A DNA stretch of 64,000 nt, from the NCBI GenBank assembly GCA_947165675.1, contig CAMVBJ010000012.1, positions 1 to 64,000 on the forward strand. The letters run 5' to 3'. Under the pieces are notes generated by a model, which saw only the letters and a program-made list of their open reading frames with translations, did not search any database and had not been told where the DNA came from. The stretch is from an uncultured Prevotellaceae bacterium. Its GTDB lineage: Bacteria; Bacteroidota; Bacteroidia; Bacteroidales; Muribaculaceae. Position numbers and translations under genes: made by a program. Position 1 is the first letter of the stretch. The number at the start of each line of letters is the position of its first letter. Below, in pieces: positions 13,471-61,708 of this stretch.

Positions 13471-13521
13471 GATTTATTGGAAAGCAGAATACTATAGGCG
13501 GTTTGGAGTATCTTGTGAGGC

Positions 13522-13545
13522 ACCTCCGGTCTCGGACGGATGAGT
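13522..13545 (-). repeat. Weak copy of the tRNA-Phe-derived junction
   Basis: ACCTCCGGT(C/T)TCGGACGGATGAGTC is shared with the junctions at 15764-15788 and 17902-17926, but the terminator half is lost here. It marks the boundary between the third and fourth surface-protein genes. Confidence 0.6.
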
Positions 13546-13566
13546 CAAAATGACAACCAGTTATAT

Positions 13567-15477: not shown

Positions 15478-15536
15478 TGCCTTAAGTATTAAAAGTTAAT
15501 ATCACTTGATAGAATCATTTTTAAAGTTTTATCCCG

Positions 15537-15544
15537 CAAAGGTA
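15537..15544 (-). promoter_or_regulatory. Promoter -7 box for the third array gene
   Basis: CAAAGGTA reads TACCTTTG on the minus strand, 60 bases before the start at 15477. Confidence 0.7.
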
Positions 15545-15710
15545 ATCAATGTCCTAAAAGAAGACAAGCCTTTCGCCAAGGAGAGACTAAAAAAATTCAA
15601 AAAAATCATATAATCAGCGGCCTCCAACGGATCCTTTCAAGGATATTGCGATTCAGCGGATAAAAGCGGGGGATGACCCGAGATTGCTAAACAATGTGGT
15701 GACCCGACCT

Positions 15711-15772
15711 AAGAAAAACGACCGGCTGCGTGGGCAGTCGGCCGCTTTGTGTTATTGATGTGGTACCTCCGG
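15711..15772 (-). repeat. Copy C of the tRNA-Phe 3' end plus terminator
   Basis: On the minus strand this reads CCGGAGGTACCACATCAA, the last 12 bases of tRNA-Phe plus its flank, followed by the GC-rich hairpin and a T-run. It differs from copy B (17846-17909) at only about four positions. It lies downstream of the second array gene and should terminate its transcription. The remaining intergenic space from 15545 to 15710 shows nothing else. Confidence 0.85.
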
Positions 15773-15824
15773 TTTCGGACGGATGAGTCTCGATCTCGGT
15801 TGTCATTTCGGCAACCAGTTATCT

Positions 15825-17447
15825 CTAATGCCAGGAGCCGCTCAGGATGATGTCAATCAAGGCATTGATGTCGGCGATGTTGATTTCTCCGTCACCGTTC
15901 ACGTCGGCAGCAATAGTGTCATCATTTCCACCCAAGATGATGCTAATGGCGGCATTCACATCAGCAATGTTGACCTCAAGGTCACGATTCACGTCGCCAA
16001 TGAATATATCTTCCACAATCTGCACGAAATAGGGATACCAGTTCTTGTTAGCACGGTAGGCATCAGCCGTCCCCTGCAGCACATGTAGCGTACGGCCAGA
16101 GCCATAGTAATCACCGAATTGTTCATACCCGCCCGATACGCTCGAGAGGTCAGCAATGTAGCAATACACATCCGTCAGCCCCGAGCACCAGGAGAACGCC
16201 TCGTCACCGATTGAAGTTACCGAGTTGGGGATGTCGATGCTGGTCAACCCAGTGCAGTAGTAGAGCGCATAGTCACCGATATAAGTTACCGAGTTGGGGA
16301 TGACGATGCTGGCCAGTCCAGTGCAGCTATGGAACGCCCCACCAGCAATGCCTAATGTTCCTTCTTTGAAAGTCATATTCGTTCCGCTTGGCATCGTGCC
16401 TTTATAGCCATAAGCGAACATGCCGACATAGACCATTCCGTCTGGCTGGTTATTGTACCATGCTGTATTATCGAACGCATAGCCACCGACATAAGTTAAC
16501 GAGTTGGGAATGTTGAAACTTGTTAGTCCAGTGCAGTCAGCGAACGCATCGTCACCGATAGAAGTCACCGAGTTGGGGATATCGATGCTGGTCAAACCAG
16601 TGCAGCCAGAGAATGCACCGTCACCGATAGCAGTTATCGAGTTGGGGAAAATCGTGTTGTCGCAGCCCAAAAACAAAGTATTAGAGGCAGTCTCTATAAT
16701 TGCATTGCAGTTGTTGCGCGAATCATATCTTGGATTCCCACTTTCTACCACGATGCTGGTCAGCACGGGGCAATCAAAGAACGCCATACCATTGATCTCA
16801 GTTACCGAGTTGGGGATGACAATGCCAGTCATTCCAATGCAGCCCTCGAACGCATAGCCAGCAATGCCTAATGTTCCTTCTTTGAAAGTCATATTCGTTC
16901 CGCTTGGCATCGTGCCTTTATACTTATAAGCGACCTTGCCAGCATAGACCATTCCGTCTGGCTGGTTATTGTACCATGCTGTATTATTGAACGCATAGCC
17001 ACCGATTGCTGTTACCGAGTTGGGGATGTCGATGCTGGTCAGTCCAGTGCAGTCCTCGAACGCCTGGACACCGATTGCTGTTACCGAGTTGGGGATGACT
17101 ATGCTGGTCAGTCCAGTGCAGTTATAGAACACCACGCGACCGATAGAAGTTACCGAGTTGGGGATGTCGACGCTGGTCAGACCACGGCAGTTATAGAACG
17201 CCTGGTCACCGATAGAAGTTACCGGGTAGGTGATTCCATTGTAGGTGACGGTGGCTGGGATGACGACAGAGCCTGAATACCCACCGGAAAAAGGATAATA
17301 AGAATGATCGTAAGTTCTAAATGTCACGGTAGCCTCATTGCCGTTGATGTTGTAATAGATGCTATCGACCTCGAAGTCGTGAGCCGTGGCGAGTGCAGGC
17401 AACAGGAGGGCCAGCACCAGGATTGAGGATGTGATAATGTTTTTCAT
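15825..17447 (-). CDS. BspA-like LRR_5 surface protein with dockerin-like tail
   Basis: Exported protein of 540 residues with a signal peptide ending at ATAHD (residue 23). LRR_5 repeats are interrupted twice by a 45-residue module (AWYNNQPDGMVYAGKVAYKY...GTNMTFKEGTLGIAG). A third insert, NPRYDSRNNCNAIIETASNT, is shared with other members. The C-terminus has the GRTLHVLQGTADAYRA cap and two dockerin-like loops (DVNRDLEVNIADVNAAISI, DVNGDGEINIADINALIDI). It has its own promoter and ends in copy C of the tRNA-derived terminator. Confidence 0.9.
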   Translation of the reverse strand: MKNIITSSILVLALLLPALATAHDFEVDSIYYNINGNEATVTFRTYDHSYYPFSGGYSGSVVIPATVTYNGITYPVTSIGDQAFYNCRGLTSVDIPNSVTSIGRVVFYNCTGLTSIVIPNSVTAIGVQAFEDCTGLTSIDIPNSVTAIGGYAFNNTAWYNNQPDGMVYAGKVAYKYKGTMPSGTNMTFKEGTLGIAGYAFEGCIGMTGIVIPNSVTEINGMAFFDCPVLTSIVVESGNPRYDSRNNCNAIIETASNTLFLGCDNTIFPNSITAIGDGAFSGCTGLTSIDIPNSVTSIGDDAFADCTGLTSFNIPNSLTYVGGYAFDNTAWYNNQPDGMVYVGMFAYGYKGTMPSGTNMTFKEGTLGIAGGAFHSCTGLASIVIPNSVTYIGDYALYYCTGLTSIDIPNSVTSIGDEAFSWCSGLTDVYCYIADLSSVSGGYEQFGDYYGSGRTLHVLQGTADAYRANKNWYPYFVQIVEDIFIGDVNRDLEVNIADVNAAISIILGGNDDTIAADVNGDGEINIADINALIDIILSGSWH

Positions 17448-17485
17448 TTTAGTCGTTGGGTTTTAAGCGTTAATGATTGTTGTCG

Positions 17486-17493
17486 CAAAGATA
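17486..17493 (-). promoter_or_regulatory. Promoter -7 box for the second array gene
   Basis: CAAAGATA reads TATCTTTG on the minus strand, 39 bases before the start at 17447. The flank out to about 17600 matches the flank of the first array gene (20040-20145). Confidence 0.7.
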
Positions 17494-17593
17494 AACTTAG
17501 CCATAAGAGTAAACAAGCCTTTCACAAACAAAAAAGCCAATCGCCAGGGAAAAAAAGAAAAAGTGTCAAATATTTTGTCAGTGAACTGCCCCT

Positions 17594-17830
17594 ATCCGTT
17601 CATCCGTTCATTCATGCATGCGTGAGAAAACAGGGAAAAGTCAGGTCTCAGTCGCCATCACGTACCCATTCGTATGAACGGACGAACGAATGAATTATAA
17701 CTGTAGTATTAAGAGAAATTAATTATATATGATTAGAATAGGTTTGTGTCAAAACTTGCGATGACACAACCTTTCTATACGTTCATCCGTTCGTTCATAT
17801 TTATATATAATAGCGAACGAACGGATGAAC
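17594..17830. repeat. GTTC/GAAC tetramer palindrome element, copy 2
   Basis: Contains tetramer-rich arms at 17594-17614, 17671-17695, 17781-17796 and 17815-17830. The last two form a perfect 16-bp inverted repeat with an 18-base loop. The hairpin at 17744-17769 (TTGTGTC...GACACAA) is, read on the minus strand, 24 of 26 identical to 56623-56648 in the restriction locus. No coding sequence is visible. It lies between copy B of the tRNA junction and the promoter of the second array gene. Confidence 0.75.
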
Positions 17831-17845
17831 AGGCCAGCATTTCCC

Positions 17846-17909
17846 AACAAAAAAACGACCGGCTGCACGGGCAGTCGGCCGCTTTGTGTTATTGATGTGG
17901 TACCTCCGG
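17846..17909 (-). repeat. Copy B of the tRNA-Phe 3' end plus terminator
   Basis: 64 bp, 58 of which match 20395-20458, the 3' end and terminator of the intact tRNA-Phe gene. Twelve bases are tRNA sequence (acceptor strand, discriminator and part of the T-stem) and the rest is flank. It lies downstream of the first array gene. Confidence 0.9.
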
Positions 17910-17961
17910 TTTCGGACGGATGAGTCTCGATCCCGGTTGTCATTTTGGCAACCAGTTATAT

Positions 17962-19995
17962 CTAATTCGGTGTGCCGCTCAGGATGATGTCAATCAAGGC
18001 GTTGATGTCGGCGATGTTGATTTCTCCGTCACCGTTCACGTCGGCAGCGGTAGTGTCATCATTTCCGCCCAAGATGATGTCGATGGCGGCGTTCACATCA
18101 GCAATATTGACCTCAAGGTCACGATTCACGTCGCCCAGGAATATATCTTCCACAATCTGCCCGAAATACGGGTACCAGCGTTCATCGGCTTGGTAGGCAC
18201 CAGTCATCCCCTGTAGAACATGAAGTGTGCGACCTGAGTAGTCGCCATCATACAAATACCACCAACAACATGGATCACCGTACTCGTTCGATACTCTTAA
18301 GGGGTCAGCAATGTAGCTATACACATCCGACAGTCCAGTGCACCATTCGAACGCTTTGAAGTCAATTCTAGTCACCGAGTTGGGGATGACGATGCTGGAC
18401 AGTCCAGTGCAGCCACCGAACGCCTGTTGACCGATCTTAATCACCGAGTTGGGGATGACGATGCTGGTCAGCCCCGTGCAGCCAGAGAACGTATTGTCAC
18501 CGATCTCAGTTATCGAGTTGGGAATGACGATGCTGGTCAGCCCAGAGCAGTTACCGAACGCATGGATGCCGATCTTAGTTACCGAGTTGGGGATATCAAT
18601 GCTGGTCAGTCCACTGCATCCCTTGAACGCCATGAAACCGATAGCAGTTACCGAGTTGGGGATGACGATGTCGGTCAGCCCCGTGCGGCCATCGAACGCA
18701 TAGTCGCCGATCTTAGTTACCGAGTTGGGGATAATCGTGTTCTTGCAGCCAGCAATTAAAGTATTAGAGGCGGTCTCTATAATTGCATTACAGCCGTTGT
18801 GCGAATCATATCTTGGATTGCCACTTTCTACCACGATACTGGTCAGACCTGAGCACCAATCGAACGCCGTGCGGTCAATCCCAGTTACCGAATTGGGAAT
18901 GACGATGCCGGTCAGCCCAGTGCAGTCAGCGAACGCTTCGCCAGCGATAGAATCTACCGAGTTGGGGATAACGATGCTGGTCAATCCTCTGCAAAACACG
19001 AAAGTATCGCCACGGATAACAGTTACCGAGTTGGGAATATTGACGCTGGTCAGACCTGTGCAGTGTGCAAACGCCCCGGCACCGATATCAGTTACCGAGT
19101 TGGGAATGACGATGCTGGTCAGACCTGTGCAGTATCTGAACGCATCGCCAGTTATACTTGTGGTTCCATTTCTTAAAGTTATATTCGTTCCGCTTGGCAT
19201 TGTGCCTTTATACTTATAAGCGACCGTGCCGGCATAGACCAATCCGTCGGGCTGGTTATTGAACCATGGAGTATCATAGAACGCATCCTCGCCAATCTTT
19301 GTTACAGACTTGGGGATGTCCATGCTAGTCAGGCTCTCGCAGCAAGCGAACGCCCAATCACCGATATAAGTTACCGAGTTGGGAATGACGATGCCGGTCA
19401 GCCCAGTGCAGTCAGCGAACGCATAGTCAGAAATACTTAATGTTCCTTCTTTTAGTGTGATGCTTGTCCCCGGGGGCATTGTGCCTTTATATTTATAAGC
19501 GACCAATCCCGCATAGACCAATCCGTCTGGTTGGTTGCTATACCAACCAGTGCCAGAGAATGCCCCGTCGCCGATGGTGGTGACGGAGTTGGGAATGTTG
19601 ATCGTAGTCAGGAAGGAGCATTCACTGAACACCTCATCATCAATAGTAGTGACGGAGTTGGGGATGCTGATTTCGGTCAAACTCTTGCAGCGAGAGAACG
19701 CCCCGTAGTCGATGTAAGTAACGGAGTTGGGGATGTTGATGTCGGTCAAGTAAATGCAGCGAGAGAACGCCAAATCGCCAATGGTGGTGACGGCGTAGGT
19801 TGTACCGTCATGGGTGACGGTGGCAGGGATGGTTACTGAGCCTTTGTATTCATTATTACCAAAGGTGACGGTGGCGGTGGCGTTGATGCGGTTGATGTTG
19901 TAATAGATGCCATCGACCTCAATGTCGGCAGCCGTGGCTACGGCTGGCAACAGGAGAGCCAGCAGCAGGAGGATAGATGTCATTAGGTTTTTCAT
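17962..19995 (-). CDS. BspA-like LRR_5 surface protein with dockerin-like tail, largest array member
   Basis: Exported protein of 677 residues from ATG 19995. The frame is open upstream to 20085, but the start at 19995 gives a proper signal peptide (MKNLMTSILLLLALLLPAVATA) and lies just after the promoter. LRR_5 repeats are broken twice by the WYSNQPDGLVYAG / WFNNQPDGLVYAG module and once by NPRYDSHNGCNAIIETASNT. The tail has the GRTLHVLQG cap and two dockerin-like loops. It is the array member nearest the intact tRNA-Phe and ends in copy B of the tRNA-derived terminator. Confidence 0.9.
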   Translation of the reverse strand: MKNLMTSILLLLALLLPAVATAADIEVDGIYYNINRINATATVTFGNNEYKGSVTIPATVTHDGTTYAVTTIGDLAFSRCIYLTDINIPNSVTYIDYGAFSRCKSLTEISIPNSVTTIDDEVFSECSFLTTINIPNSVTTIGDGAFSGTGWYSNQPDGLVYAGLVAYKYKGTMPPGTSITLKEGTLSISDYAFADCTGLTGIVIPNSVTYIGDWAFACCESLTSMDIPKSVTKIGEDAFYDTPWFNNQPDGLVYAGTVAYKYKGTMPSGTNITLRNGTTSITGDAFRYCTGLTSIVIPNSVTDIGAGAFAHCTGLTSVNIPNSVTVIRGDTFVFCRGLTSIVIPNSVDSIAGEAFADCTGLTGIVIPNSVTGIDRTAFDWCSGLTSIVVESGNPRYDSHNGCNAIIETASNTLIAGCKNTIIPNSVTKIGDYAFDGRTGLTDIVIPNSVTAIGFMAFKGCSGLTSIDIPNSVTKIGIHAFGNCSGLTSIVIPNSITEIGDNTFSGCTGLTSIVIPNSVIKIGQQAFGGCTGLSSIVIPNSVTRIDFKAFEWCTGLSDVYSYIADPLRVSNEYGDPCCWWYLYDGDYSGRTLHVLQGMTGAYQADERWYPYFGQIVEDIFLGDVNRDLEVNIADVNAAIDIILGGNDDTTAADVNGDGEINIADINALIDIILSGTPN

Positions 19996-51766: not shown

Positions 51767-52471
51767 ATGAGCAAATTCAGATTCCTGGTCATCTCTATGA
51801 CCGTCATGATTGCCGCTGCCATGACACCTGCTGCCGTGGCTCAGCAGGCTACCCAGAATGTGCAACAACTCGAGCGGGACATCGAGATGCACGAGAAGAA
51901 CATCAAGCAAAATGAAGACTCTATTAAGAGTCTTGAGGACCGCATTGAAAACCTCAAGTCCCAGATCAAGGAACTCGAGTCACAGAAGAAAGCCCTTGAG
52001 AAAGATGTCAAGAACGAGACCAAGATGCGCCGTGACAAGTTTACACTGAGAGACGAACTGGTCTATGACGAGGAGATTGCCGATGTCCTCTACAATCCCT
52101 ACAATAAGGGCGACGTCGATGAAGCACTCGACAGCTTCGAGGGCATGGAAACCAAGGAGGTCATCAAGAAGAAAGAACTGGTGGAGAAGTACGGCGAGTA
52201 CACCAAGGACCTCAAAGACTTCATGGAGAAGATGAAAAATCAGTTGACAGCCAACAAGTGGAAATACCTCTCATCGACCACCGACCTGTACAAGAAGTTT
52301 GAAAAAGGCCTCAAGGGCACCAAGTACTGGAAAGTCTATAACAAGAAAGAGAAAAACGAGAGTATTGACTATCTGGACCGCATCGTTGACAAGATCATGC
52401 TCTTCAAGAATGAAGGCCTCAAGAGCGAAAGCCAGTTCAACCAAATCCTCAACATGCTCTACGCCAACTAA
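51767..52471 (+). CDS. Exported coiled-coil protein
   Basis: Protein of 234 residues. The signal peptide ends near AVAQQ (residue 26). Residues about 30-85 form a long heptad coiled coil (LERDIEMHEKNIKQNEDSIKSL and on). The rest is helical and lysine-rich (KKKELVEKYGEYTKDLKDFMEKMK). No family is recognised. It probably resides in the periplasm. The gene is single, between its promoter and a hairpin. Confidence 0.75.
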   Translation: MSKFRFLVISMTVMIAAAMTPAAVAQQATQNVQQLERDIEMHEKNIKQNEDSIKSLEDRIENLKSQIKELESQKKALEKDVKNETKMRRDKFTLRDELVYDEEIADVLYNPYNKGDVDEALDSFEGMETKEVIKKKELVEKYGEYTKDLKDFMEKMKNQLTANKWKYLSSTTDLYKKFEKGLKGTKYWKVYNKKEKNESIDYLDRIVDKIMLFKNEGLKSESQFNQILNMLYAN

Positions 52472-52614: not shown

Positions 52615-52635
52615 GTTCGTCCGTTCGTTCGTCCG
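52615..52635. repeat. Left tetramer repeat of the restriction island
   Basis: Tandem GTTC/GTCC tetramers. Bases 52615-52633 are the exact inverse complement of 61567-61585, so the two form a 19-bp inverted repeat around the whole restriction locus. The repeat also covers the -33 position of the hsdM promoter. Confidence 0.8.
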
Positions 52636-52652
52636 TTTTGGAAGATATTACC

Positions 52653-52660
52653 TATCTTTG
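52653..52660 (+). promoter_or_regulatory. Promoter -7 box for hsdM
   Basis: TATCTTTG, 27 bases before the hsdM start. The matching -33 position (about 52628-52632) falls in the tetramer repeat and reads TTCG instead of TTTG. Confidence 0.65.
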
Positions 52661-52686
52661 TGGTTCAATGAAAGAACACCAAGCCA

Positions 52687-54183
52687 ATGATTACAGGAGA
52701 GATTAAAAACCGTATAGACAGCATTTGGGACACCTTTTGGACCGGTGGCATCACCAATTCCATCACCATTCTCGAGCAGATGACCTATCTGTTCTTTATG
52801 AAGATGCTCGACGATGCTCAGCGCACCAAGGAGGCCAATGCCAACGCGATGGGAGTGGCGGTGTCCGAGCCGACCATCGGCTATGGAGCATGGCACAACC
52901 CCGAGACCGACCGCAACGTCCCCTACGAAGACCTGCGGTGGAGCACATTCAAGCACTATGACCCCGAGACGATGTACCGCATCGTCAGCAAGGACGTGTT
53001 TGTGTTCATCAAGAACCTGAGCAGCGGCAAGGAGTCGGCCTACAGCCGTTTCATGGAGAATGCGACCTTCCTGATTCAAAGCCCCCGCACCCTCACCAAG
53101 ATTGTCGAGGGCATTGACCACCTTGACATGAACAACCGTGACACGATGGGCGACGTCTATGAGTATGTGCTCAGCAAGATGGCGGCTTCGGGCAACAACG
53201 GCCAGTTCCGCACGCCCCGACACATCATCCGTATGATGGTTGAAATTATGCAGCCCTCCTTGAAGGACACCATCTGTGACCCTGCTATGGGCAGTGCAGG
53301 CTTTATCGTCGAGAGTGCCAAGTATGTGCGTGAGCATTACAAGTCTGAACTGTTGAAGAAGGAGAATGCCCACCACTACAAGAATGAGATGCTGCACGGC
53401 TTCGACACCGATTTCACCATGCTGCGCATCGGAGCGATGAACCTGATGCTGCATGGTGTCGATAATCCTGACATCCAGTACCGGGACAGCCTCTCGACCG
53501 ACAACACCGACGAGAACCGCTACACCCTTTGCCTGGCCAATCCTCCTTTCACAGGAAGTCTCGACAACGAGGCGGTGAGCAAGTCCCTGCTTGCCATCAC
53601 CAAGACCAAGAAAACAGAGTTGCTGTTCGTCAGTCTGTTCATCCGTATGCTGCAGATGGGTGGCCGTTGCGCCTCTATCGTTCCTGACGGCGTATTGTTC
53701 GGCAACAGCACGGCTCACAAGGCCTTGAGGCGGGAACTGATCGACAACCAACGGCTGCAAGCGGTGATTTCGATGCCTTCGGGCGTGTTCCAGCCCTATT
53801 CGGGAGTTTCCACGGCAGTCCTCGTGTTCACCAAGACCAATGCGGGCGGCACGGATAAGGTATGGTTCTACGACATGAAGGCCGATGGCTATACACTTGA
53901 CCAAAAGCGTACAGAGTGCCCCGAGAATGACATTCCCGACGTCATCGCCCGCTTCAAGAACATGGATGCCGAGGCAACAAGGACCCGCAAGGACCAATCC
54001 TTCCTTGTTCCTGTCGAGGAAATCCGCGACAACGACTACGACCTCAGCATCAACAAATACAAGGAAGTGGAGCGTGTCAAGGTCGAATACGAAGCCCCCG
54101 AAGTCATCTTCGGCAAGATAACCTCCCTGCAACAGGACATCAACAACGCCATGGCGGAGTTCAGGGAGAAGTTTCTATCATAA
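52687..54183 (+). CDS. hsdM: Type I restriction-modification DNA methyltransferase subunit
   Basis: N6-adenine methyltransferase subunit of 498 residues. The HsdM N-terminal helical domain (about 1-130) is followed by the catalytic domain with SAM motif DPAMGSAGFIVE and catalytic NPPF (CLANPPFTGSL). The C-terminal helix region would join HsdS. It is the first gene of the locus. Its stop codon overlaps the start of the HUH protein gene (TAATG), and its usual partner hsdS is displaced by 3 kb. Confidence 0.96.
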   Translation: MITGEIKNRIDSIWDTFWTGGITNSITILEQMTYLFFMKMLDDAQRTKEANANAMGVAVSEPTIGYGAWHNPETDRNVPYEDLRWSTFKHYDPETMYRIVSKDVFVFIKNLSSGKESAYSRFMENATFLIQSPRTLTKIVEGIDHLDMNNRDTMGDVYEYVLSKMAASGNNGQFRTPRHIIRMMVEIMQPSLKDTICDPAMGSAGFIVESAKYVREHYKSELLKKENAHHYKNEMLHGFDTDFTMLRIGAMNLMLHGVDNPDIQYRDSLSTDNTDENRYTLCLANPPFTGSLDNEAVSKSLLAITKTKKTELLFVSLFIRMLQMGGRCASIVPDGVLFGNSTAHKALRRELIDNQRLQAVISMPSGVFQPYSGVSTAVLVFTKTNAGGTDKVWFYDMKADGYTLDQKRTECPENDIPDVIARFKNMDAEATRTRKDQSFLVPVEEIRDNDYDLSINKYKEVERVKVEYEAPEVIFGKITSLQQDINNAMAEFREKFLS

Positions 54184-55328
54184 TGATACAGGCATCTTAT
54201 CGCCCTCGCAACCCGGGCCACGATTACTACGGCCGGGGCACCTACCTCATCACGCTGGTAGTGAGCGAGAGGGCGCCGTTGCTTGGACGGCTGGGCAATG
54301 ATGTCAAGCACCCCCATGTCGCCCTGTCACCGCTGGGTGAAGTGGTGAAGCAGACGTGGGAGACCATTCCCGAGAAACAGGTGTCCCATGGCAACCGTGT
54401 GGCAGTGCATGCCTGCGTGTGCATGCCCGACCATTTCCATGGCGTGCTCGAGGTGCTGGAGCCCATGCAGTGGAGCCTGGGCGACATCATGCAGGCCTTC
54501 AAGGCGGCATGCACCAGCCACTGGCAGCGGCAACACGGCTACGGCCCCTCCATCAACCGCCCGATATCGGTCGATTGCAGCAGCCAGCAAGTGCCGGCAT
54601 GGCTGCGCGAGAAGGCCCGCCTCCACGACAACGAGGGCGCGCTCATCCGCGCCATGTCCAAGCGGCAGCGACAGGAGTACTACACGCTGGTGGGCAGGGA
54701 GCAGCGACCGCTATTCGACGAGAATTACGATGATACGGTGTGCCTCGACCAGCGCCACCGCCAGGCCATGATCGCCTACGTCCACGATAACCCGCGGCGC
54801 GCCATTTTGCGGAGGGCCTTGCCACAGTTGATGCAGCGCACCCTGCATGTACAGATTGGGGGGCGCGACTATGGCACCTTCGGCAACCTCTTCTTGTTGC
54901 GATGGGCCAATAAGGTGCAGGTGCAATGCCACCGCCTGCATCCCGCCAGCAGGGAGCCCTACGAGACCACGGCCGACTATGCCCGGCAGCATCAACAATG
55001 GGTCGATGCCATCATGCGTGGTGCTACCGTGATGGTCACCCCCGGCATCTCTCGTGGCGAACTGATGATGAAAAACGAATGCCTCAAGAACGGTTATCCG
55101 CTCATCCATATCCAGAAAGAACCCATCACCGACTATTGGAAACCCGAACGAACGCGATTTGAGGCCTGCGCCAACGGCAGCCTGCTCATTCTCGCTCCAT
55201 GGGGCCTCGATGCGATGGCAGCGGTTAACGGCGTGCCTGCCGACACCGACTACAGCCGTTTCCACAACATGAACCATCTTGCCGCCGAGATATGCACATT
55301 CAACGGCAAGGCCACAATCCTGAGATAA
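54183..55328 (+). CDS. Y1/HUH transposase-like protein with C-terminal Rossmann-like extension
   Basis: Protein of 381 residues. The N-terminal half is a Y1_Tnp (IS200/RAYT-type) domain: strand TYLITLVVSERAPLLG, the HUH motif in MPDHFHGVLE (His84, His86), and a candidate nucleophile Tyr182 in DENYDD followed by AYVHDNPRRA. The domain joins and cleaves single-stranded DNA. Residues about 275-381 are an extra module (VMVTPGISRGELMMKN, YPLIHIQ, SLLILAPWGL) whose strand-loop-helix pattern recalls SLOG/DprA-like folds; this is inference. It starts on the last base of the hsdM stop codon and must be translationally coupled. No IS ends directly flank it, so it looks like a domesticated RAYT-like gene. 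Confidence 0.85.
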   Translation: MIQASYRPRNPGHDYYGRGTYLITLVVSERAPLLGRLGNDVKHPHVALSPLGEVVKQTWETIPEKQVSHGNRVAVHACVCMPDHFHGVLEVLEPMQWSLGDIMQAFKAACTSHWQRQHGYGPSINRPISVDCSSQQVPAWLREKARLHDNEGALIRAMSKRQRQEYYTLVGREQRPLFDENYDDTVCLDQRHRQAMIAYVHDNPRRAILRRALPQLMQRTLHVQIGGRDYGTFGNLFLLRWANKVQVQCHRLHPASREPYETTADYARQHQQWVDAIMRGATVMVTPGISRGELMMKNECLKNGYPLIHIQKEPITDYWKPERTRFEACANGSLLILAPWGLDAMAAVNGVPADTDYSRFHNMNHLAAEICTFNGKATILR

Positions 55329-55350
55329 CCACCCTCATGAACCCTCGATT

Positions 55351-55374
55351 ACAACTACTGATAACGGTAGTTGT
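55351..55374 (+). terminator. Hairpin after the HUH gene
   Basis: An 8-bp stem (ACAACTAC / GTAGTTGT) is followed by TGTTATTTTAC. Confidence 0.55.
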
Positions 55375-55406
55375 TGTTATTTTACAAATAATTCTCGCCG
55401 TTTTTT

Positions 55407-55439
55407 CTTGTAAGATATGGTATTTTTACCATATCTTTG
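55407..55439 (+). promoter_or_regulatory. Promoter and operator-like palindrome of the AAA ATPase gene
   Basis: CTTG (55407-55410), 21 bases, TATCTTTG (55432-55439). A perfect 11-bp dyad (AAGATATGGTA / TACCATATCTT, loop TTTT, 55412-55437) fills the spacer and overlaps the -7 box, a place where a repressor would block transcription. Confidence 0.65.
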
Positions 55440-55497
55440 CACCATGAATTGCGAAACACGCAATTCCTTGAGTTTAATTTTTTAAAAAATTAGTAAC

Positions 55498-56586
55498 ATG
55501 AACAACACATCCAATGAACCATTACGGTGGCAAGACTGCCTGTTAGCCGAGGAAAAGGCTAAAAAAAAATTCACCAGCATCAAAGAGAAGTATGTAATCG
55601 ATGGCGACGTCGATTATCCCGAACCCGAGTACCTCATCCGCATCGGCGACGTGCCCACCCTGCCCAAGGGCAACCTGGTGGCCGTGAGTGCCAAGTGGAA
55701 AAACGGAAAAACGTTCTTCTGCGACATCCTGAGCGCCATCTTTCTGGGCTCCGACACGTTCACCAACTGCGAGAGCCTGGTCAAGAAGGGCAAGGTGCGA
55801 TTTATCGACACCGAGCAGGCGAGGAACGACAGCGCCCGCATCCTCAAGACCATCCGAGCCATCATTCCCGAGGAAAGGCATGGCGACATCGAGGTCTCCT
55901 GTCTGCGTGATGCCGATATCGACAGTTACGACGCCGATAATGATGATGTTTCCCGCTATGAGTTTGTGAGCCAGTCCATCGAGATTGAGCGTCCCGATCT
56001 GGTCATCGTTGACGGCATTGCCGACCTCATCTACAACTACAATGACGTGACCGAGAGCCAGGACATGGTTCACAAGCTGGCTACTCTCGCCAACAAGCAC
56101 AACTGCTGCATCGTCGTGGTCATGCACCAGAACAAGGGCAGCCATGACAAGATGATGAAGGGACACATCGGCACCATGCTCTACCAGAAGTGCAGCGACG
56201 TGTTCCAGGTCGAGAAACACGGCGATATATTTCTCGTCAGCCATCCCGTGTCTCGCCATCGCCAAAGCCAAGGACTGGTTTTCAAACTCGACGAGAACGC
56301 CATCCCCAAGGACGGCGCAGCCGACCGCCATCGGCAGATGCAACTCGAGAGGCAACAGAGCGAGCAGCAGGTGAGGGAAATCCTCGCCGACGTCATTCCC
56401 CAGGACGGCACGCCCATCAGGCGCAGCGACATCGTTGAGCGACTCACCGAGAAGCATCCTTTCCAGCGAACCCGTTGCTACGAACTCATCAAGCAAGCCC
56501 TGGCAACGGGGTTGCTCGAGGAGGTGGACAGGTCAAGGGTAAGGCTCAAGCCTGCAGCCGACGTTTCGTCCGTTCGTCCGCTATAA
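55498..56586 (+). CDS. RecA/RepA-like AAA ATPase
   Basis: P-loop ATPase of 362 residues of the AAA_25/RepA type, common on mobile elements. Walker A is AKWKNGKTFF (about residue 64) and Walker B is RPDLVIVDGIADLI (about 165). A histidine-containing loop VVMHQNKGS follows. Residues about 295-350 form a winged-helix-like domain (IRRSDIVERLTEKHPFQRTRCYELIKQAL). The last residues (SSVRPL) are encoded by GTCC/GTTC tetramers. It lies between hsdM and hsdS under its own operator-like promoter. It could be a helicase loader, a regulator or a defence accessory. Confidence 0.8.
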   Translation: MNNTSNEPLRWQDCLLAEEKAKKKFTSIKEKYVIDGDVDYPEPEYLIRIGDVPTLPKGNLVAVSAKWKNGKTFFCDILSAIFLGSDTFTNCESLVKKGKVRFIDTEQARNDSARILKTIRAIIPEERHGDIEVSCLRDADIDSYDADNDDVSRYEFVSQSIEIERPDLVIVDGIADLIYNYNDVTESQDMVHKLATLANKHNCCIVVVMHQNKGSHDKMMKGHIGTMLYQKCSDVFQVEKHGDIFLVSHPVSRHRQSQGLVFKLDENAIPKDGAADRHRQMQLERQQSEQQVREILADVIPQDGTPIRRSDIVERLTEKHPFQRTRCYELIKQALATGLLEEVDRSRVRLKPAADVSSVRPL

Positions 56587-56598
56587 TATATATAAATT

Positions 56599-56711
56599 GA
56601 ACGAACGAATGAACGGATGAAATTGTGTCATCGATAGTTTTGACACAACAATTTCATTTCTGTCATTAAACTATACAATACCTACCCTTTCATCCGTTCA
56701 TTCGTTCGTTC
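56599..56711. repeat. 113-bp nested palindrome of GAAC/GTTC tetramers, copy 1
   Basis: A perfect 24-bp inverted repeat (56599-56622 with 56688-56711) encloses 65 bases. Inside is a hairpin TTGTGTCA/TGACACAA (56623-56648) that is 24 of 26 identical to the minus strand of 17744-17769. A further tetramer run (56564-56580) forms the end of the ATPase gene. The structure could form a cruciform or, as RNA, a long hairpin. Confidence 0.85.
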
Positions 56712-56753
56712 GCATGTACACATTTTATTCACACTTTAAATATTTCAAGTACT

Positions 56754-56981
56754 ATGACACACAATATCAATTTAACTGAATTAGTTGACCTGCTCGCCGA
56801 CTACATTGTCACCGGCATTCACATCAACATCGACAGCGAAAGTGAGGTAAAGACCATCTCGGTACACAACCTCAAGACCGGCAAAGCGGTGAAGTTCACC
56901 TTCAAGGTTCCCGTCCGCGGTGTTTGCCAAATTGGTGACTGGGAGGAAACGACCGAGCCGGTAAACAAGCCTAAAGATTAA
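56754..56981 (+). CDS. Small hypothetical protein
   Basis: Protein of 75 residues: helical start (TELVDLLADYIVTGIHI), then strands (VKTISVHNLKTGKAVKFTFKV) and a charged end. Codon use fits the neighbours and there is a good terminator after it. I do not recognise it. Its place between the AAA ATPase and hsdS suggests it belongs to the island; a regulator or antitoxin-sized accessory is possible but unsupported. Confidence 0.6.
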   Translation: MTHNINLTELVDLLADYIVTGIHINIDSESEVKTISVHNLKTGKAVKFTFKVPVRGVCQIGDWEETTEPVNKPKD

Positions 56982-56983
56982 TC

Positions 56984-57016
56984 CGCACGTACGTCCGTAC
57001 GAACGAATGGACGGAC
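56984..57016. repeat. Tetramer repeat downstream of the small protein
   Basis: CGTACGTCCGTACGAACGAA and following bases form another partly palindromic run of the GTCC/GAAC family, just before a terminator. Confidence 0.65.
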
Positions 57017-57027
57017 AGCCCTGCATT

Positions 57028-57064
57028 GGTGGTGCTCTCGACAAAAAGGGCACCACCTTTTTTA
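57028..57064 (+). terminator. Intrinsic terminator before hsdS
   Basis: An 8-bp stem (GGTGGTGC / GCACCACC) is followed by a run of T. It separates the accessory genes from hsdS-hsdR. Confidence 0.85.
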
Positions 57065-57112
57065 TTAAATATTATTCCACCACAAAACCTGCCCCATTCA
57101 AACAGAAATTTG

Positions 57113-57120
57113 TAACTTTG
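57113..57120 (+). promoter_or_regulatory. Promoter -7 box for hsdS-hsdR
   Basis: TAACTTTG, 20 bases before the hsdS start. The specificity and restriction genes are therefore transcribed separately from hsdM. Confidence 0.7.
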
Positions 57121-57140
57121 CACCAAACGACCAATAACCA

Positions 57141-58232
57141 ATGAACAAACAAGACTGGACATATAAGAAACTGGGAGAGGTTGCAACTATTGTTGGAGGC
57201 AGCACTCCAAAATCAAATATTGAAGAATATTGGGGTGGCACAAACTATTGGGTCACACCTGCCGATTTAGATGGAAATAAATATCAAGGTGCAACTCCTC
57301 GAACCATAACTGATTTGGCCGTACAAAAAACCAATCTTCAATTACTCCCTATTGGTACAGTATTATTATCATCACGTGCACCTATTGGAAAAGTTGCTAT
57401 CACCACTGTTCCTATGTATTGTAATCAGGGATTCAAGAATGTAGTTTGTTCAGATCTCCTTATAAATGAATTTGTTTATTGGTATCTATTTGGAAAAGTT
57501 GACTACCTAAATTCATTGGGTAGAGGAGCAACATTTAAGGAGATTTCTAAAAGAGCCACAGAACAAATCCCTATTCCTGTGCCGCCGATTGCGGAGCAGG
57601 AGCGGATTGTTGCGGAACTTGATTTGCTTTCGGGCATCATCGAGAAGAAGAAAGAACAACTCAAAGCCTACGACCAACTCGCACAGTCCATCTTCTACTC
57701 CATGTTTGGCGACCCCATCGACAATCCTAAAGGATGGGAAACCAAAACGATTGGCAATACATGTACTATTACTTGTGGCCAAGACTATAAGACTGTCGAA
57801 GATGAAAATGGAAAGTACCCTATATACGGAACAGGAGGAATAATGGGTTGGGCCAATCAGTTCAGATGCCCAAAAGATTCTGTAATCATTGGAAGAAAGG
57901 GCAATATCAATAACCCGATTTTAGTAAATGCTGATTTTTGGAATGTTGATACCGCATTTGGTGTCACTCCAAATAACGAAGTGCTGAGTGCAATTTATTT
58001 CTTCTTTTTTTGTAAAGAGTATGATTTTACGCAGCATGATGTTTCTGTTACGATACCAAGTTTGCGAAGAACTGACATCTTAAAAATAAAGTTGCCTGTT
58101 CCTCCTCTTTCGCTTCAGCAGGAGTTTGCTGAGAAGATAGAGGCGATTGAGAGGCAAAAGGCTTTGGTTCAACAATCCATTGACGAGACGCAGACGATGT
58201 TTGACTGCACGATGGATAAATACTTTGGATAA
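57141..58232 (+). CDS. hsdS: Type I restriction-modification specificity subunit
   Basis: DNA-recognition subunit of 363 residues with two target recognition domains (about 5-145 and 195-330). Each is followed by a conserved coiled-coil spacer (PVPPIAEQERIVAELDLL and PVPPLSLQQEFAEKIEAI). The recognition domains are AT-rich (57170-57570, 57745-58085), whereas the first spacer (57580-57740) has the GC content of the rest of the island. This fits domain exchange. The hsdR gene starts 3 bases after the stop codon. Confidence 0.95.
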   Translation: MNKQDWTYKKLGEVATIVGGSTPKSNIEEYWGGTNYWVTPADLDGNKYQGATPRTITDLAVQKTNLQLLPIGTVLLSSRAPIGKVAITTVPMYCNQGFKNVVCSDLLINEFVYWYLFGKVDYLNSLGRGATFKEISKRATEQIPIPVPPIAEQERIVAELDLLSGIIEKKKEQLKAYDQLAQSIFYSMFGDPIDNPKGWETKTIGNTCTITCGQDYKTVEDENGKYPIYGTGGIMGWANQFRCPKDSVIIGRKGNINNPILVNADFWNVDTAFGVTPNNEVLSAIYFFFFCKEYDFTQHDVSVTIPSLRRTDILKIKLPVPPLSLQQEFAEKIEAIERQKALVQQSIDETQTMFDCTMDKYFG

Positions 58233-58235
58233 ACT

Positions 58236-61200
58236 ATGAGGAACTTCGACTATCTACAGGAATTGGGTTTGACTGACCTGCATCGCTTCTGCTCGGCAGC
58301 CGAGGAAATGCAGGTGAGTAATCCTGACCTGAGTGCCGTCAGCGCCAGGAAGGCCTTGGAGTATATCGTCAGGGCTCTCTATGTGATGAAAAACATCGAG
58401 GTGCCCGAGCGGGTATCCCTGTTTGAACTTGTGGATGGCGAGGTGTTCCGTGGGTTCATCGGCGACCAGCGGGTAATGAAGGCCGTTCACTATGTACGCA
58501 AGGTGGGCAACAACGGGGCTCATGGCAAGCATGTGTCAGGGGGCGAATCGTTCTTCTGCCTGCTCAACCTCTACAATGTGGTGGCCGCGATATTGCACAA
58601 ATTGACCTTCATCAAGGAGGTCGTCCCGTTTGACAGGAACCTGATCCCCAGCAGTCCCCAGGCAACGGTCATCACGCCCCCCAAGGTCGAGGTAAGTCCC
58701 ACATCGGCCATCGTCGAGGCGGCAGACAAAGAGGCCGTCGAGGACAAGACTCCCGTGGTGGAAGTGGAATCGGATATCTCCGAGGCCGAGACTCGAAAAC
58801 TCTACATCGACCTGATGCTGAAAGAGGCAGGCTGGGACGTGCTGGAGACCGAAGGAGCCATCCAGCCCTCAAAGGCCTGCATCGAAGTCGAGGTCGAAGG
58901 CATGCCCAACAATGAGGGCAAAGGCTACTGCGACTATGTGCTGTTCGGCAGCAACGGTCTGCCCCTGGCAGTGATTGAAGCCAAGCGGACAAGCGTGTCT
59001 CCCGTCAAGGGCAAACATCAAGCCGAACTGTATGCCGAGTGCCTGGAAAAGCGCTACGGCGTGAAGCCCGTCATCTACTACAGCAACGGCTTTGAGACAC
59101 ATATCATCGACGGGCTGGGCTATCCTCCCCGCCCGCTCTACGCCTTCCACACCGAGGCCGACCTGGAACTGCTCCTGCTGAAAAGGAAGCGGCACGATAT
59201 CGCCGATTTCGGCGTGAAAGACAGCATCACCGACCGCCATTACCAGAAAATGGCCATCAAGGCGGTGTGTGAACACTTCAACAGCAAGCACCGCCGAGGC
59301 CTGCTTGTCATGGCGACAGGAACGGGCAAGACGAGAGTCGCCATCTCGCTGGTCGATGTGCTGGCATGTAACGGATGGGTGAAGAACGTCCTGTTCCTTG
59401 CCGACAGGACTCCCCTGGTGAGCCAGGCACACAAGAACTTCGTGAAACTGCTGCCCCACATGACCACCTCGGTCCTGAGCGAGGACAAAGACCCCGACAC
59501 GACCGCCCGCATCACCTTCTCGACCTATCAGACGATGATCAACTACATCGACACCGACGAGAAAGCCTTCAGTGTCGGTCGGTTTGACCTGATTATCATC
59601 GACGAGGCGCACAGGTCAATCTTCGGCAAGTATTCAGCCATCTTCAACTACTTTGACGCTCTGCTCGTAGGCTTGACAGCGACACCCCGTGACGAGGTGG
59701 ACAAGAGCACCTATGAGACCTTCCAAATGGAACAGGGCGTGCCCAACTATGCCTACGAACTGGAGGATGCCGTGGCCGAGGGCTACCTGGTCAACTACAA
59801 GGGCTTCAAGCGTGGATCACTCATCCTGAAAGAGGGTATCAAGTACAATAACCTGAGCGCAGAGGAAAAGGAACAGCTCGAAAAGGTGTGGGAGTATGAA
59901 CAGGCTGTCAAGGCTATTGAAGGAGATCCCCAACACCGAGATATCGAGAGCAAGGAGATATTCAATTACATCTTCAACCTCGACACCATCGACCGTGTGC
60001 TGCAAGACCTGATGGAGAACGGTCTGAAGGTGCAGAGCGGGGAGCGTATCGGCAAGTCCATCATCTTTGCCTACAACCATCGCCACGCTGAAATGATCGT
60101 CGAGCGGTTCTACTACTTATACCCTGAATACTCATCAGATTTCTGCGCCCTTATCGACAACTATGTCACCTATTCAAAAGACCTCATCGACAAGTTCGAA
60201 ATCAGGGATGGCAACCCGCAGATAGCCGTTTCGGTCGATATGCTTGACACAGGCATTGACGTGCCCGATGTGTTGAACCTTGTGTTCTTCAAGGTGGTCA
60301 AGAGTAAAATCAAGTTCATGCAGATGATTGGCCGAGGCACACGCTTGTCACAGGGCATCTTCGGGCCAGGGAAAGACAAGGAGTTCTTCTACATCTTTGA
60401 TTGGTGCAGGAACTTCGAGTATTTCGACAAGAACCCCGATGGTCAGACAGCAGCCGTTGCACCGTCGTTGACCGAGAAGATTTTCAGTATTCGGGCTAAG
60501 ATAGCGTTCCACTTGCAGCATCAGCAGTGGCAAGAAGACGAGTATGCCCGGGGGCTACATGACGAAATCAAGACGCTGTTGAAAGAACAGGTCGCCTCGC
60601 TCAGTGACAGCCACATCTCAGTAAGGGAAAAATGGGCTGACGTGAGCCACTTCAAGGGCAACGACTCATGGACATACATTTCGGAAGTTGATGTCAACAC
60701 ATTGAGCAATGTTATCGCTCCCTTGCTGCCCAAGAACACCCTCGACGAGAGTGCCAAGAAATTTGACGTGTTGGTGATGCTGATTGAATTGTCGCTGATT
60801 GGCGGGGAAGGCAATGCCACCAAAGCCGTGCACTCGGTTCAAACGATTGCCGAGAAACTGCAAGAGAAAGCCACCCTGCCCCAGGTACAGGCCAAGATGG
60901 GCACGATCAAGGAAGTATTGACCGATGTGGCTTGGCAGAACGTCTCGCTCAAGTGGCTTGAAAAAGTCCGCAACGACCTGAGAGACCTCATCAAGTTCCT
61001 CATCGGGCAAGGCGGGCAGTGGTTCACTGTGGACATCGAGGACGAAATCAGCGACGAGGGTACGATGGAGGGCATCACACCCCGTGTGTCCTACAAGCAG
61101 AGCGTGCTGGACTTCCTGTCGAAGAACAGAAACCTGCCCGTACTCCAAAAGATCTACGATATGGAGCAACTGACAGCAGCCGACTTCACCGAACTTGAAC

Positions 61201-61550
61201 GCATCCTGTGGCAAGAACTTGGCAGTAAGGATGATTACGACAAGTTCACCCATGGGATGCCCTGCGGCGGCAATGTCGCCATGTTTGTCCGCTCCCTGGT
61301 CGGCGTTGACCGCAAGAATGCGGTGAGACGGTTCTCGGAGTTCATCTCTGGGAACGAATTGAATGCCGAACAGGAGGACTTCCTGAATACCATTATCGCC
61401 TATGTGTGCGAGAACGGAGACATCACCAAGGAGATCGTCGTTAACGAGTCGCCCTTCGACGAGCAGCTGTCAGTATTCACCCCCTACATGCTGCCCCTGG
61501 CCAAGTACATCGACACCATCCACGGCGTCATCACCCCACAGACGGCATAA
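58236..61550 (+). CDS. hsdR: Type I restriction-modification restriction subunit
   Basis: Endonuclease and translocase subunit of 1104 residues. An N-terminal DUF4145-like helical domain (ARKALEYIVRALYV, about 1-125) and a linker precede the HSDR_N nuclease domain (YCDYVLFGSNGLPLAVIEAKR, about 240-260). The SF2 helicase motor follows, with MATGTGKTRVAISL (Walker A), IIDEAHRSIFGKYS (DEAH), GLTATPRDE and QMIGRGTRLSQG. The C-terminal region (about 760-1104) is helical. All motifs look intact, so an active enzyme is expected. Confidence 0.95.
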   Translation: MRNFDYLQELGLTDLHRFCSAAEEMQVSNPDLSAVSARKALEYIVRALYVMKNIEVPERVSLFELVDGEVFRGFIGDQRVMKAVHYVRKVGNNGAHGKHVSGGESFFCLLNLYNVVAAILHKLTFIKEVVPFDRNLIPSSPQATVITPPKVEVSPTSAIVEAADKEAVEDKTPVVEVESDISEAETRKLYIDLMLKEAGWDVLETEGAIQPSKACIEVEVEGMPNNEGKGYCDYVLFGSNGLPLAVIEAKRTSVSPVKGKHQAELYAECLEKRYGVKPVIYYSNGFETHIIDGLGYPPRPLYAFHTEADLELLLLKRKRHDIADFGVKDSITDRHYQKMAIKAVCEHFNSKHRRGLLVMATGTGKTRVAISLVDVLACNGWVKNVLFLADRTPLVSQAHKNFVKLLPHMTTSVLSEDKDPDTTARITFSTYQTMINYIDTDEKAFSVGRFDLIIIDEAHRSIFGKYSAIFNYFDALLVGLTATPRDEVDKSTYETFQMEQGVPNYAYELEDAVAEGYLVNYKGFKRGSLILKEGIKYNNLSAEEKEQLEKVWEYEQAVKAIEGDPQHRDIESKEIFNYIFNLDTIDRVLQDLMENGLKVQSGERIGKSIIFAYNHRHAEMIVERFYYLYPEYSSDFCALIDNYVTYSKDLIDKFEIRDGNPQIAVSVDMLDTGIDVPDVLNLVFFKVVKSKIKFMQMIGRGTRLSQGIFGPGKDKEFFYIFDWCRNFEYFDKNPDGQTAAVAPSLTEKIFSIRAKIAFHLQHQQWQEDEYARGLHDEIKTLLKEQVASLSDSHISVREKWADVSHFKGNDSWTYISEVDVNTLSNVIAPLLPKNTLDESAKKFDVLVMLIELSLIGGEGNATKAVHSVQTIAEKLQEKATLPQVQAKMGTIKEVLTDVAWQNVSLKWLEKVRNDLRDLIKFLIGQGGQWFTVDIEDEISDEGTMEGITPRVSYKQSVLDFLSKNRNLPVLQKIYDMEQLTAADFTELERILWQELGSKDDYDKFTHGMPCGGNVAMFVRSLVGVDRKNAVRRFSEFISGNELNAEQEDFLNTIIAYVCENGDITKEIVVNESPFDEQLSVFTPYMLPLAKYIDTIHGVITPQTA

Positions 61551-61566
61551 CGGCACGCACATACCC

Positions 61567-61590
61567 GACGAACGAACGGACGAACGAACA
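61567..61590. repeat. Right tetramer repeat of the restriction island
   Basis: GAAC/GGAC tetramers starting 16 bases after the hsdR stop. Bases 61567-61585 are inverse complementary to 52615-52633. The tRNA gene's 3' end lies 45 bases further right. Confidence 0.8.
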
Positions 61591-61634
61591 AAAAACAAAA
61601 ATCACCGGCACCATCAAGCGTCGGCGATTTATTG

Positions 61635-61708
61635 TGGTCCCACTTGGGCTTGAACCAAGGACTCCCTGATTATGAGTCAGGTGCTCTAACCAACTGAGCT
61701 ATAGGACC
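61635..61708 (-). tRNA. tRNA with CAU anticodon, probably tRNA-Ile2
   Basis: A complete cloverleaf is readable on the minus strand: acceptor GGTCCTA/TGGGACC, D-arm TAGCTCAGTTGGTTAGAGCA, anticodon arm CCTGA-CTCATAA-TCAGG with CAT at 61672-61674, T-arm TTGGTTCAAGCCCAA, discriminator A, no encoded CCA. C4-G69 and C5-G68 match TilS substrates, favouring lysidine-modified Ile2 over elongator Met. The restriction island abuts its 3' side. Confidence 0.9.

Follow-up and report, generated by a model that had tools for sequence, protein, structure and literature searches.

Within a window of 64,000 nt (the whole stretch analysed, positions 1 to 64,000 of contig CAMVBJ010000012.1, from a genome of 3.12 Mb), a type I restriction-modification (RM) locus lies between a conserved gene for a 234-aa protein (51767-52471, + strand) and tRNA-Met(CAT) (61634-61708, − strand). 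The genes hsdM, hsdS and hsdR occur together here, and the order on the + strand is hsdM, a RAYT-like gene, an AAA_25 ATPase gene, a palindromic array, a 75-aa open reading frame (ORF), hsdS and hsdR. The DNA methyltransferase gene hsdM (52687-54183) matches Pfam N6_Mtase (5.3e-67) and HsdM_N (4.3e-13) as well as PADLOC MTase_I (2.1e-179). The specificity subunit gene hsdS (57141-58232) matches Pfam Methylase_S (4.4e-53) and can be aligned with its relatives in part only, while the restriction subunit gene hsdR (58236-61550) matches Pfam ResIII (1.2e-41) and other families, and PADLOC REase_I (2.2e-165). The RAYT-like gene (54183-55328), the start of which overlaps the hsdM stop, encodes a 381-aa protein of the HUH/Y1 transposase family. 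It is followed by the gene of a RecA/DnaB-like ATPase (55498-56586; Pfam AAA_25, 8e-13), the C-terminal part of which is variable in an alignment of 17 sequences. No function was assigned to the 75-aa ORF (56754-56981), which had no family match in the Pfam, NCBIfam, PADLOC or PHROG searches. Among RNA families, only the two tRNAs reached the gathering score (seven sources scanned).

Short runs of tetramers with the unit RRAY edge this locus. The left border arm (52615-52638, RRAY units on the − strand) separates the 234-aa gene from hsdM, and the right border arm (61567-61589, + strand) separates hsdR from tRNA-Met(CAT). The original prediction had described an exact inverse-complementary pair of 19 bp at these borders, and this is borne out: 52615-52633 and 61567-61585 are identical at 19/19 positions across 9 kb, and face each other as inverted ends, and no second pair of 19-mers in the window is exactly inverted at a distance above 200 bp. 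The tetramer runs that it reported inside the locus are also real, near 56564-56580 and at 56599-56618, 56692-56711 and 57001-57016 (+ strand), the last one 3′ of the 75-aa ORF and followed by a terminator-like hairpin (by eye). Its claim that the arms bracket exactly hsdM to hsdR holds for the outer positions; a plain operon it is not, since the RAYT-like gene, the AAA_25 gene and the 75-aa ORF are enclosed as well.

The internal array is built from hairpins in the order H1, H2, H3, which is common to many copies (17592-17830 in the window, copies on contigs C5 and C47 of the same genome, and, in part, 56564-57016). H1 (56564-56622, + strand) consists of a pyrimidine arm, an A/T centre with TATATA and an inverse, purine arm, and short repeats flank this A+T centre in the arrays. 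H2 (56623-56648, + strand; TTGTGTCATCGATAGTTTTGACACAA, with the pattern TGTCATCGNNAGTNNTGACA at 56626-56645) is a conserved hairpin, TTGTGTCATCGNNAGTTTTGACACAA. By eye, H3 is composed of an arm, a CATGNNCGTG-like stretch, a CACGCATG-like stretch and an inverse arm. A second array arm (56688-56711, + strand) is the perfect inverse of the H1 right arm, and 56599-56622 and 56688-56711 are thereby an inverted repeat without mismatch over 24 bp; as DNA, the strand 56563-56720 has a folding z of −7.9 relative to shuffles. Another H1-H2-H3 array stands alone, with no AAA gene, at 17592-17830 (− strand; fold z −7.2) between leucine-rich repeat (LRR)-type genes, so that the repeats are not limited to the restriction locus. 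The LRR-type genes around it (12864-19612) contain tandem repeats, mostly of 69-bp units.

These repeats form a rare and distinct family. Five in-phase RRAY tetramers were matched 32 times in the 3.12-Mb genome, on six contigs and at about ten places, compared with 1 match for the reversed pattern used as control; tetramer runs scattered at random through ordinary intergenic regions are thus not what is seen. Among 98 other genomes of the family, none had an excess over its own reversed control comparable to that of the source genome. Within the genus (101 genomes), some are enriched, such as G225 (22 versus 0) and G215 (17 versus 1). The arms of H1 keep their complementarity as the units change (0.567 versus 0.332 in 26 arrays). 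Random microsatellites or a mutational bias are ruled out as the source by the reversed-pattern control and the common H2 core.

The array family is tied to the AAA_25 ATPase. In the 101 genus genomes the H2 pattern gave 41 matches and its reversed control 1; two of the copies, in L222 and L232, are coding false matches without arms, and counts are given with and without both. With an AAA_25 relative called at E ≤ 1e-100, H2 occurs in 17 of the 21 genomes with AAA_25 and in 2/80 without (4/80 if the coding matches are kept). Divided by gene content, it is found in 11/12 genomes with both AAA and RAYT, 6/9 with AAA only, 2/8 with RAYT only and 0/72 with neither (2/72 with the coding matches), and thus in RAYT-negative genomes the link to AAA persists (6/9 versus 0/72, or 2/72). 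By hand count, an AAA gene is found no more than 1 kb away from 18 of the 41 H2 copies. In L198, L200, L202 and L204, RRAY arrays stand upstream of the AAA gene and a further run at its 3′ end. Elsewhere, an H1-type palindrome made of another unit directly follows the AAA stop: GAAAT/GAAT in L197, CGGAAGAAA in L208, TGAGAAGAA in L207, and GTGGAAAAG in L201, L213 and L215. At the H1 position of these relatives, L212 and L216 have a different inverted repeat (GTGTGTCATAA ... TTATGACAC) after the AAA stop. Arms within one element are more alike than arms of different elements (0.456 versus 0.185, reached in 0/2000 shuffles), in a comparison of 11 elements with arms chosen by eye, for which the shuffle result is no unbiased test; left and right arms of one element score 0.558, compared with 0.173.

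Fuller relatives of the element were found at six loci (L267-L271 and L203), where a terminase-large-subunit (TerL)-like gene faces the AAA_25 gene in the company of a DUF6371 gene and, mostly, a small ORF. Family searches used the L197/L271 copy, and similarity clusters served to assign the genes of the remaining loci. The neighbour gene in the relative matches the PHROG terminase large subunit (4.2e-17), DUF6371 weakly matches phage primase, and AAA_25 itself weakly matches PHROG DnaB-like helicases. Arms of the element's own unit are present on both sides in four of the six (L267, L268, L271 and L203), on the right only in L269 and on the left only in L270. An extra right arm lies just past a GmrSD/HNH gene and an EcoRI-type methylase gene in L267, in which these families were tested, and in L271, which has the same gene clusters; in L269, EcoRII and a C5 methylase adjoin the unit. 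Three of the six fuller units (L267, L271 and L269) therefore adjoin other restriction genes. Around other cargo, where the original prediction proposed to search for the repeats, arms with other units are seen in relatives, two of them just beyond restriction cargo. Reading of the six units and similarity clustering of their genes revealed neither an integrase nor a capsid gene inside them; a recombinase-like ORF, named by reading alone, lies about 7 kb outside the L271 unit. Scans of viral_contigs with the exact H2 pattern, AAA_25-alignment patterns and one TerL-like protein pattern, which may miss distant relatives, gave none, and on these scans a virus origin was set aside. In the literature searched, mostly without subscription papers, no description of an element family with such short-unit arms was found.

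Two sites point to mobility. The solo array after luxR on C5 is present in the source genome and in 0/29 other loci fetched, and the luxR-mlaE gap is 501 bp with the array and 37-219 bp in the 26 other loci measured (86/101 genomes match the site; 30 loci were fetched and 27 gaps measured). By eye, what follows this solo array (L303; G000 C5 31373-31609) in the luxR-mlaE interval is similar to the promoter region of AAA elements. The L268 TerL/AAA unit is located between PLA1 and GYF genes, which are at most 200 bp apart in 20/30 loci (the site matches in 94/101 genomes, from which 30 loci were retrieved; distances were taken by hand from their offsets, with 200 bp as the limit). Inverted side arms as putative ends, seen in four of the six fuller units and at the window locus, together with presence/absence at the luxR and PLA1/GYF sites, are features of terminal inverted repeat (TIR) transposons and miniature inverted-repeat transposable elements (MITEs).

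Insertions recur between the 234-aa gene and tRNA-Met, a hotspot in which the restriction locus is a presence/absence island. Twenty stretches were chosen from 70 genomes with the 234-aa gene, mainly ones not reached via RAYT. Empty sites in relatives, which the original prediction proposed to look for, account for 7/20 (L247, L254, L257, L258, L259, L261 and L266); they measure about 55-95 bp and hold only a hairpin and no tetramers. Of the occupied sites, L248 carries only a related hsdM-S-R without RAYT and AAA, L253 an unrelated type I system, L250, L263 and L265 another, carboxypeptidase-regulatory-like ORF, and L252 two LRR genes, the latter two kinds named by reading alone. Two stretches are cut (L255, in which hsdM begins, and L262) and five contain no tRNA (L249, L251, L256, L260 and L264). 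At the left border of L248, next to the 234-aa gene, the terminator-like hairpin occurs once more and a piece of the tRNA-Met 3′ end lies in inverted orientation. Loci found through RAYT add further states of the hotspot: RAYT without RM genes (L076), an hsdM stub with RAYT (L071), RAYT and AAA with no RM genes (L077), an RM operon and RAYT without AAA (L069), a changed gene order (L078), and a position behind other genes (L072). In L140 (G237 C54) the whole RM-RAYT-AAA locus is inverted and, by coordinates, downstream of the 234-aa gene, and in L097 the same locus is found at another place. Two armed borders are seen in the window and in L069, and coordinates indicate the same for G192 and, split over two contigs, for G197; L071 has only the left arm, and L073 has the right arm, its left side being cut.

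Comparison of L140 with the window revealed exact tracts of 2040 bp (55092-57131) and 1721 bp (59505-61225) in sequence that is otherwise about 85-91 percent identical. The former comprises the AAA module including its array. Exact tracts in such a diverged background suggest that modules were exchanged between genomes, unless the tracts are a binning artefact, which is possible.

The RAYT-like protein matches NCBIfam REP_Tyr_transpos with 2e-10 and 40.7 bits, below the curated cut-off of 80, and has no Pfam match. Residues H84 and H86 of the HuH motif and Y199, the tyrosine of the YxxxNP motif, are invariant in 19 sequences; we take them to be the catalytic residues, in line with the published description of RAYT proteins. 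Solved-structure searches with the RAYT-like and AAA_25 proteins returned nothing at E ≤ 0.01. In 16 of 80 RAYT loci an hsdM-cluster gene lies within 3.5 kb, and RAYT sits between hsdM- and hsdS-like genes in L082, L085, L092, L094 and L139, the L085 family being distant (hsdM 29 percent). RRAY runs of at least 4 units occur in 13/80 RAYT loci (reversed control 0/80). They are concentrated in L069-L078, L097, L140 and L141, where RAYT is at least 85 percent identical (11/13, versus 2/67 in the others). Per-genome tetramer counts covered 50 of the 80 loci, from 49 genomes, with the group sums added by hand: the 14 genomes of the closest RAYT group gave 114 matches versus 6 in the control, and the other 35 gave 57 versus 53. 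H1 lies within 500 bp of RAYT at 1/80 loci, L071, as a palindrome directly 3′ of the gene. Copies directly flanking the gene in most members, which characterise a REPtron or TIRtron, were hence not found for this repeat, the only kind searched for around RAYT.

Five things are observed: an array family, its link to AAA_25, a layout kept with different units, insertion polymorphism, and RM genes beside arms in unrelated members. The most likely interpretation, to which we give even weight for and against, is a family of mobile elements that is linked to AAA_25 and has palindromic arms made of short units; the window locus would carry a reduced member of it and is perhaps the cargo. The tetramer runs would then be the arms of mobile palindromic arrays that travel with an AAA_25 element, the fuller form of which would also include the TerL-like and DUF6371 genes and same-unit arms at its sides. 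A stripped element (AAA_25, array and 75-aa ORF) would sit inside the island between RAYT and hsdS, with half-arrays at both outer borders. Most likely, proteins of the element, AAA_25 or another, would treat the short-unit arms as inverted sites, either ends or origins, and the DNA between arms would be mobilised by a chemistry that we can only infer, now and then with neighbouring restriction genes. Solo arrays would represent non-autonomous copies. The outer pair possibly marks the ends of one self-contained cassette and has perhaps moved the restriction genes as one unit. The original prediction of a cassette with all its module borders marked by one repeat family survives in part: the repeats are non-random, they mark borders, and the locus is exchangeable; the same family also stands alone between genes without cargo, and the arms are not simply cassette ends.

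A number of observations weigh against the mobile-element interpretation. Relatives with the same genes and different borders, which the original prediction had itself named as a refutation, exist, contrary to a self-contained cassette ending at the outer arms: L070 has a degenerate left arm and lacks the right one, L248 has only the right arm and lacks the left, and no border tetramers were read at L140 or L097 in the stretches covered. The ends of the exact L140 tracts fall within RAYT, shortly upstream of hsdS and within hsdR, and not at the outer arms, which are thus not supported as exchange borders. Of the 20 AAA loci fetched, RRAY arrays occur in 4 and H2 in 10, and the RAYT loci are mostly without arrays. 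Left and right arms are unlike in two of ten elements (L198, 0.0; L202, 0.12). Because another inverted repeat lies outside the arms of the L268 unit, the arms do not fix the exact element ends, and no clear target-site duplication was found at the L268 and C5 borders. H2 shows little compensatory change, and its weak covariation was left unused. Finally, the genus genomes share ancestry and are not independent, so the p-values of the presence/absence link overstate the evidence, and nearly all RAYT loci carry a metagenome-assembled genome or uncultured label.

Several of these points agree with another explanation, in which the outer arms are independent solo half-arrays inserted beside a tRNA-side restriction island that is remodelled by homologous recombination and by insertion beside the tRNA and has never moved as an arm-bounded unit. 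Solo arrays occurring elsewhere, relatives with one arm or none, and exact tracts that do not coincide with the outer arms are all in line with this, as is the RM operon with RAYT in other rumen Bacteroidales (L082, L092 and L139), in which the locus has no tetramer run of 4 units. It sits less well with arms that face each other with 19/19 identity over 9 kb, with tetramers at both ends of the locus not only in the window but also in L069 and, judging from coordinates, in G192 and (split over two contigs) G197, and with the lack of an arm at any of the seven empty sites (0/7). We regard this explanation as quite possible, although we lean against it. That the runs are mere slippage products or plain terminators without any mobility is very improbable: their intergenic position, frequently at the end of a gene, and their strong hairpins would fit, yet the common H2 core, the fixed order, the rarity and the C5 array missing from 29 relatives all speak against it.

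The repeats could also belong to one of the neighbouring genes in a different manner. If the arms were REP- or TIR-like sequences of the RAYT-like gene at 54183-55328, spread by its protein as in a REPtron or TIRtron, one could understand why H2 occurs in 13/20 RAYT-carrying genomes versus 6/81 others (8/81 with the two coding matches), why RRAY runs concentrate near highly similar RAYT genes, and why the H1 palindrome immediately follows RAYT in L071. RAYT genes with flanking TIRs are described by Di Nocera et al. (PMC3733652), and Quentin et al. report genes of subclass 2.6, for the most part in Bacteroidetes, with atypical flanking secondary structures that have copies elsewhere (PMC6006769). 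However, H2 follows AAA without RAYT (6/9 genomes) rather than RAYT without AAA (2/8), L071 is the only one of 80 loci with H1 within 500 bp of RAYT, and L069 carries RAYT with no AAA and no internal array. We consider this origin unlikely, and RAYT as sole owner of the repeats is weakened by the H2/AAA_25 link and by the array-free RAYT loci. Alternatively, the arrays may be replication origins, iteron-like around an A+T centre, of satellite-like elements that use AAA_25 as helicase, with the border arms as leftovers. The short repeats on both sides of the A+T centre fit such an origin, as do the weak DnaB likeness of AAA_25, the TerL match (4.2e-17) and the weak phage-primase likeness of DUF6371; PLE is a known satellite that has iterons and an initiator of its own (PMC7145576). 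Neither reading nor clusters pointed to an integrase or capsid gene in the six units, and the pattern scans of viral_contigs gave no H2, AAA_25 or TerL-like relative; both results count against it, and we view the origin explanation as rather doubtful.

Returning to the mobile-element interpretation, it can be extended to the tentative, less than probable idea that a Bacteroidales element family (TerL-like, AAA_25 and DUF6371) writes its sides, its origin-like centre and its cargo borders in one element-specific repeat unit. This unit would serve as an address that accepts defence modules flanked by same-unit arms, and the type I locus in the window would be such a composite. Restriction systems move between genomes, and how single modules are picked up or swapped is often unclear. 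If the short-unit arms are indeed end or exchange signals, cargo borders would be predictable from sequence alone and repeat-coded exchange would become testable. The natural series of one layout with varied repeat units and linked ATPase variants is also suited to tests of co-evolution between a DNA site and its protein.

In comparison with known systems, the locus shares hsdM, hsdS and hsdR, a variable hsdS and different systems at one site with type I RM loci and tRNA-side defence hotspots, but differs by the RAYT-like gene and the AAA_25 and palindromic array module between hsdM and hsdS. With repetitive extragenic palindromic (REP) sequences and bacterial interspersed mosaic elements plus RAYT (REPtrons), and with TIRtrons, it has in common short dispersed intergenic palindromes, a nearby RAYT-like HUH gene and solo copies. 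REP elements carry a GTAG or CGTC foot on a palindrome of 20-40 bp (PMC3733652). Whereas REPs are such a fixed 20-40 bp palindrome, the arms here are runs of 4- to 9-base units, they occupy about ten genome places, and their link is stronger to AAA_25 than to RAYT. MITEs and TIR transposons with cargo likewise have inverted side arms, presence/absence polymorphism and gene-free short versions; in the present family, however, no DDE transposase was recognised, the arms are short-unit tandem runs that differ by element, and no target duplication was found. Phage satellites (SaPI, PICI and PLE) share a helicase-like ATPase and the primase- and terminase-like genes of the fuller relatives, as well as iteron-like repeats around an A+T centre and defence genes nearby. 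Unlike them, the units have no recognised integrase or capsid gene, no viral-contig match and a very small gene set, of which the copy in the window retains AAA_25 only.

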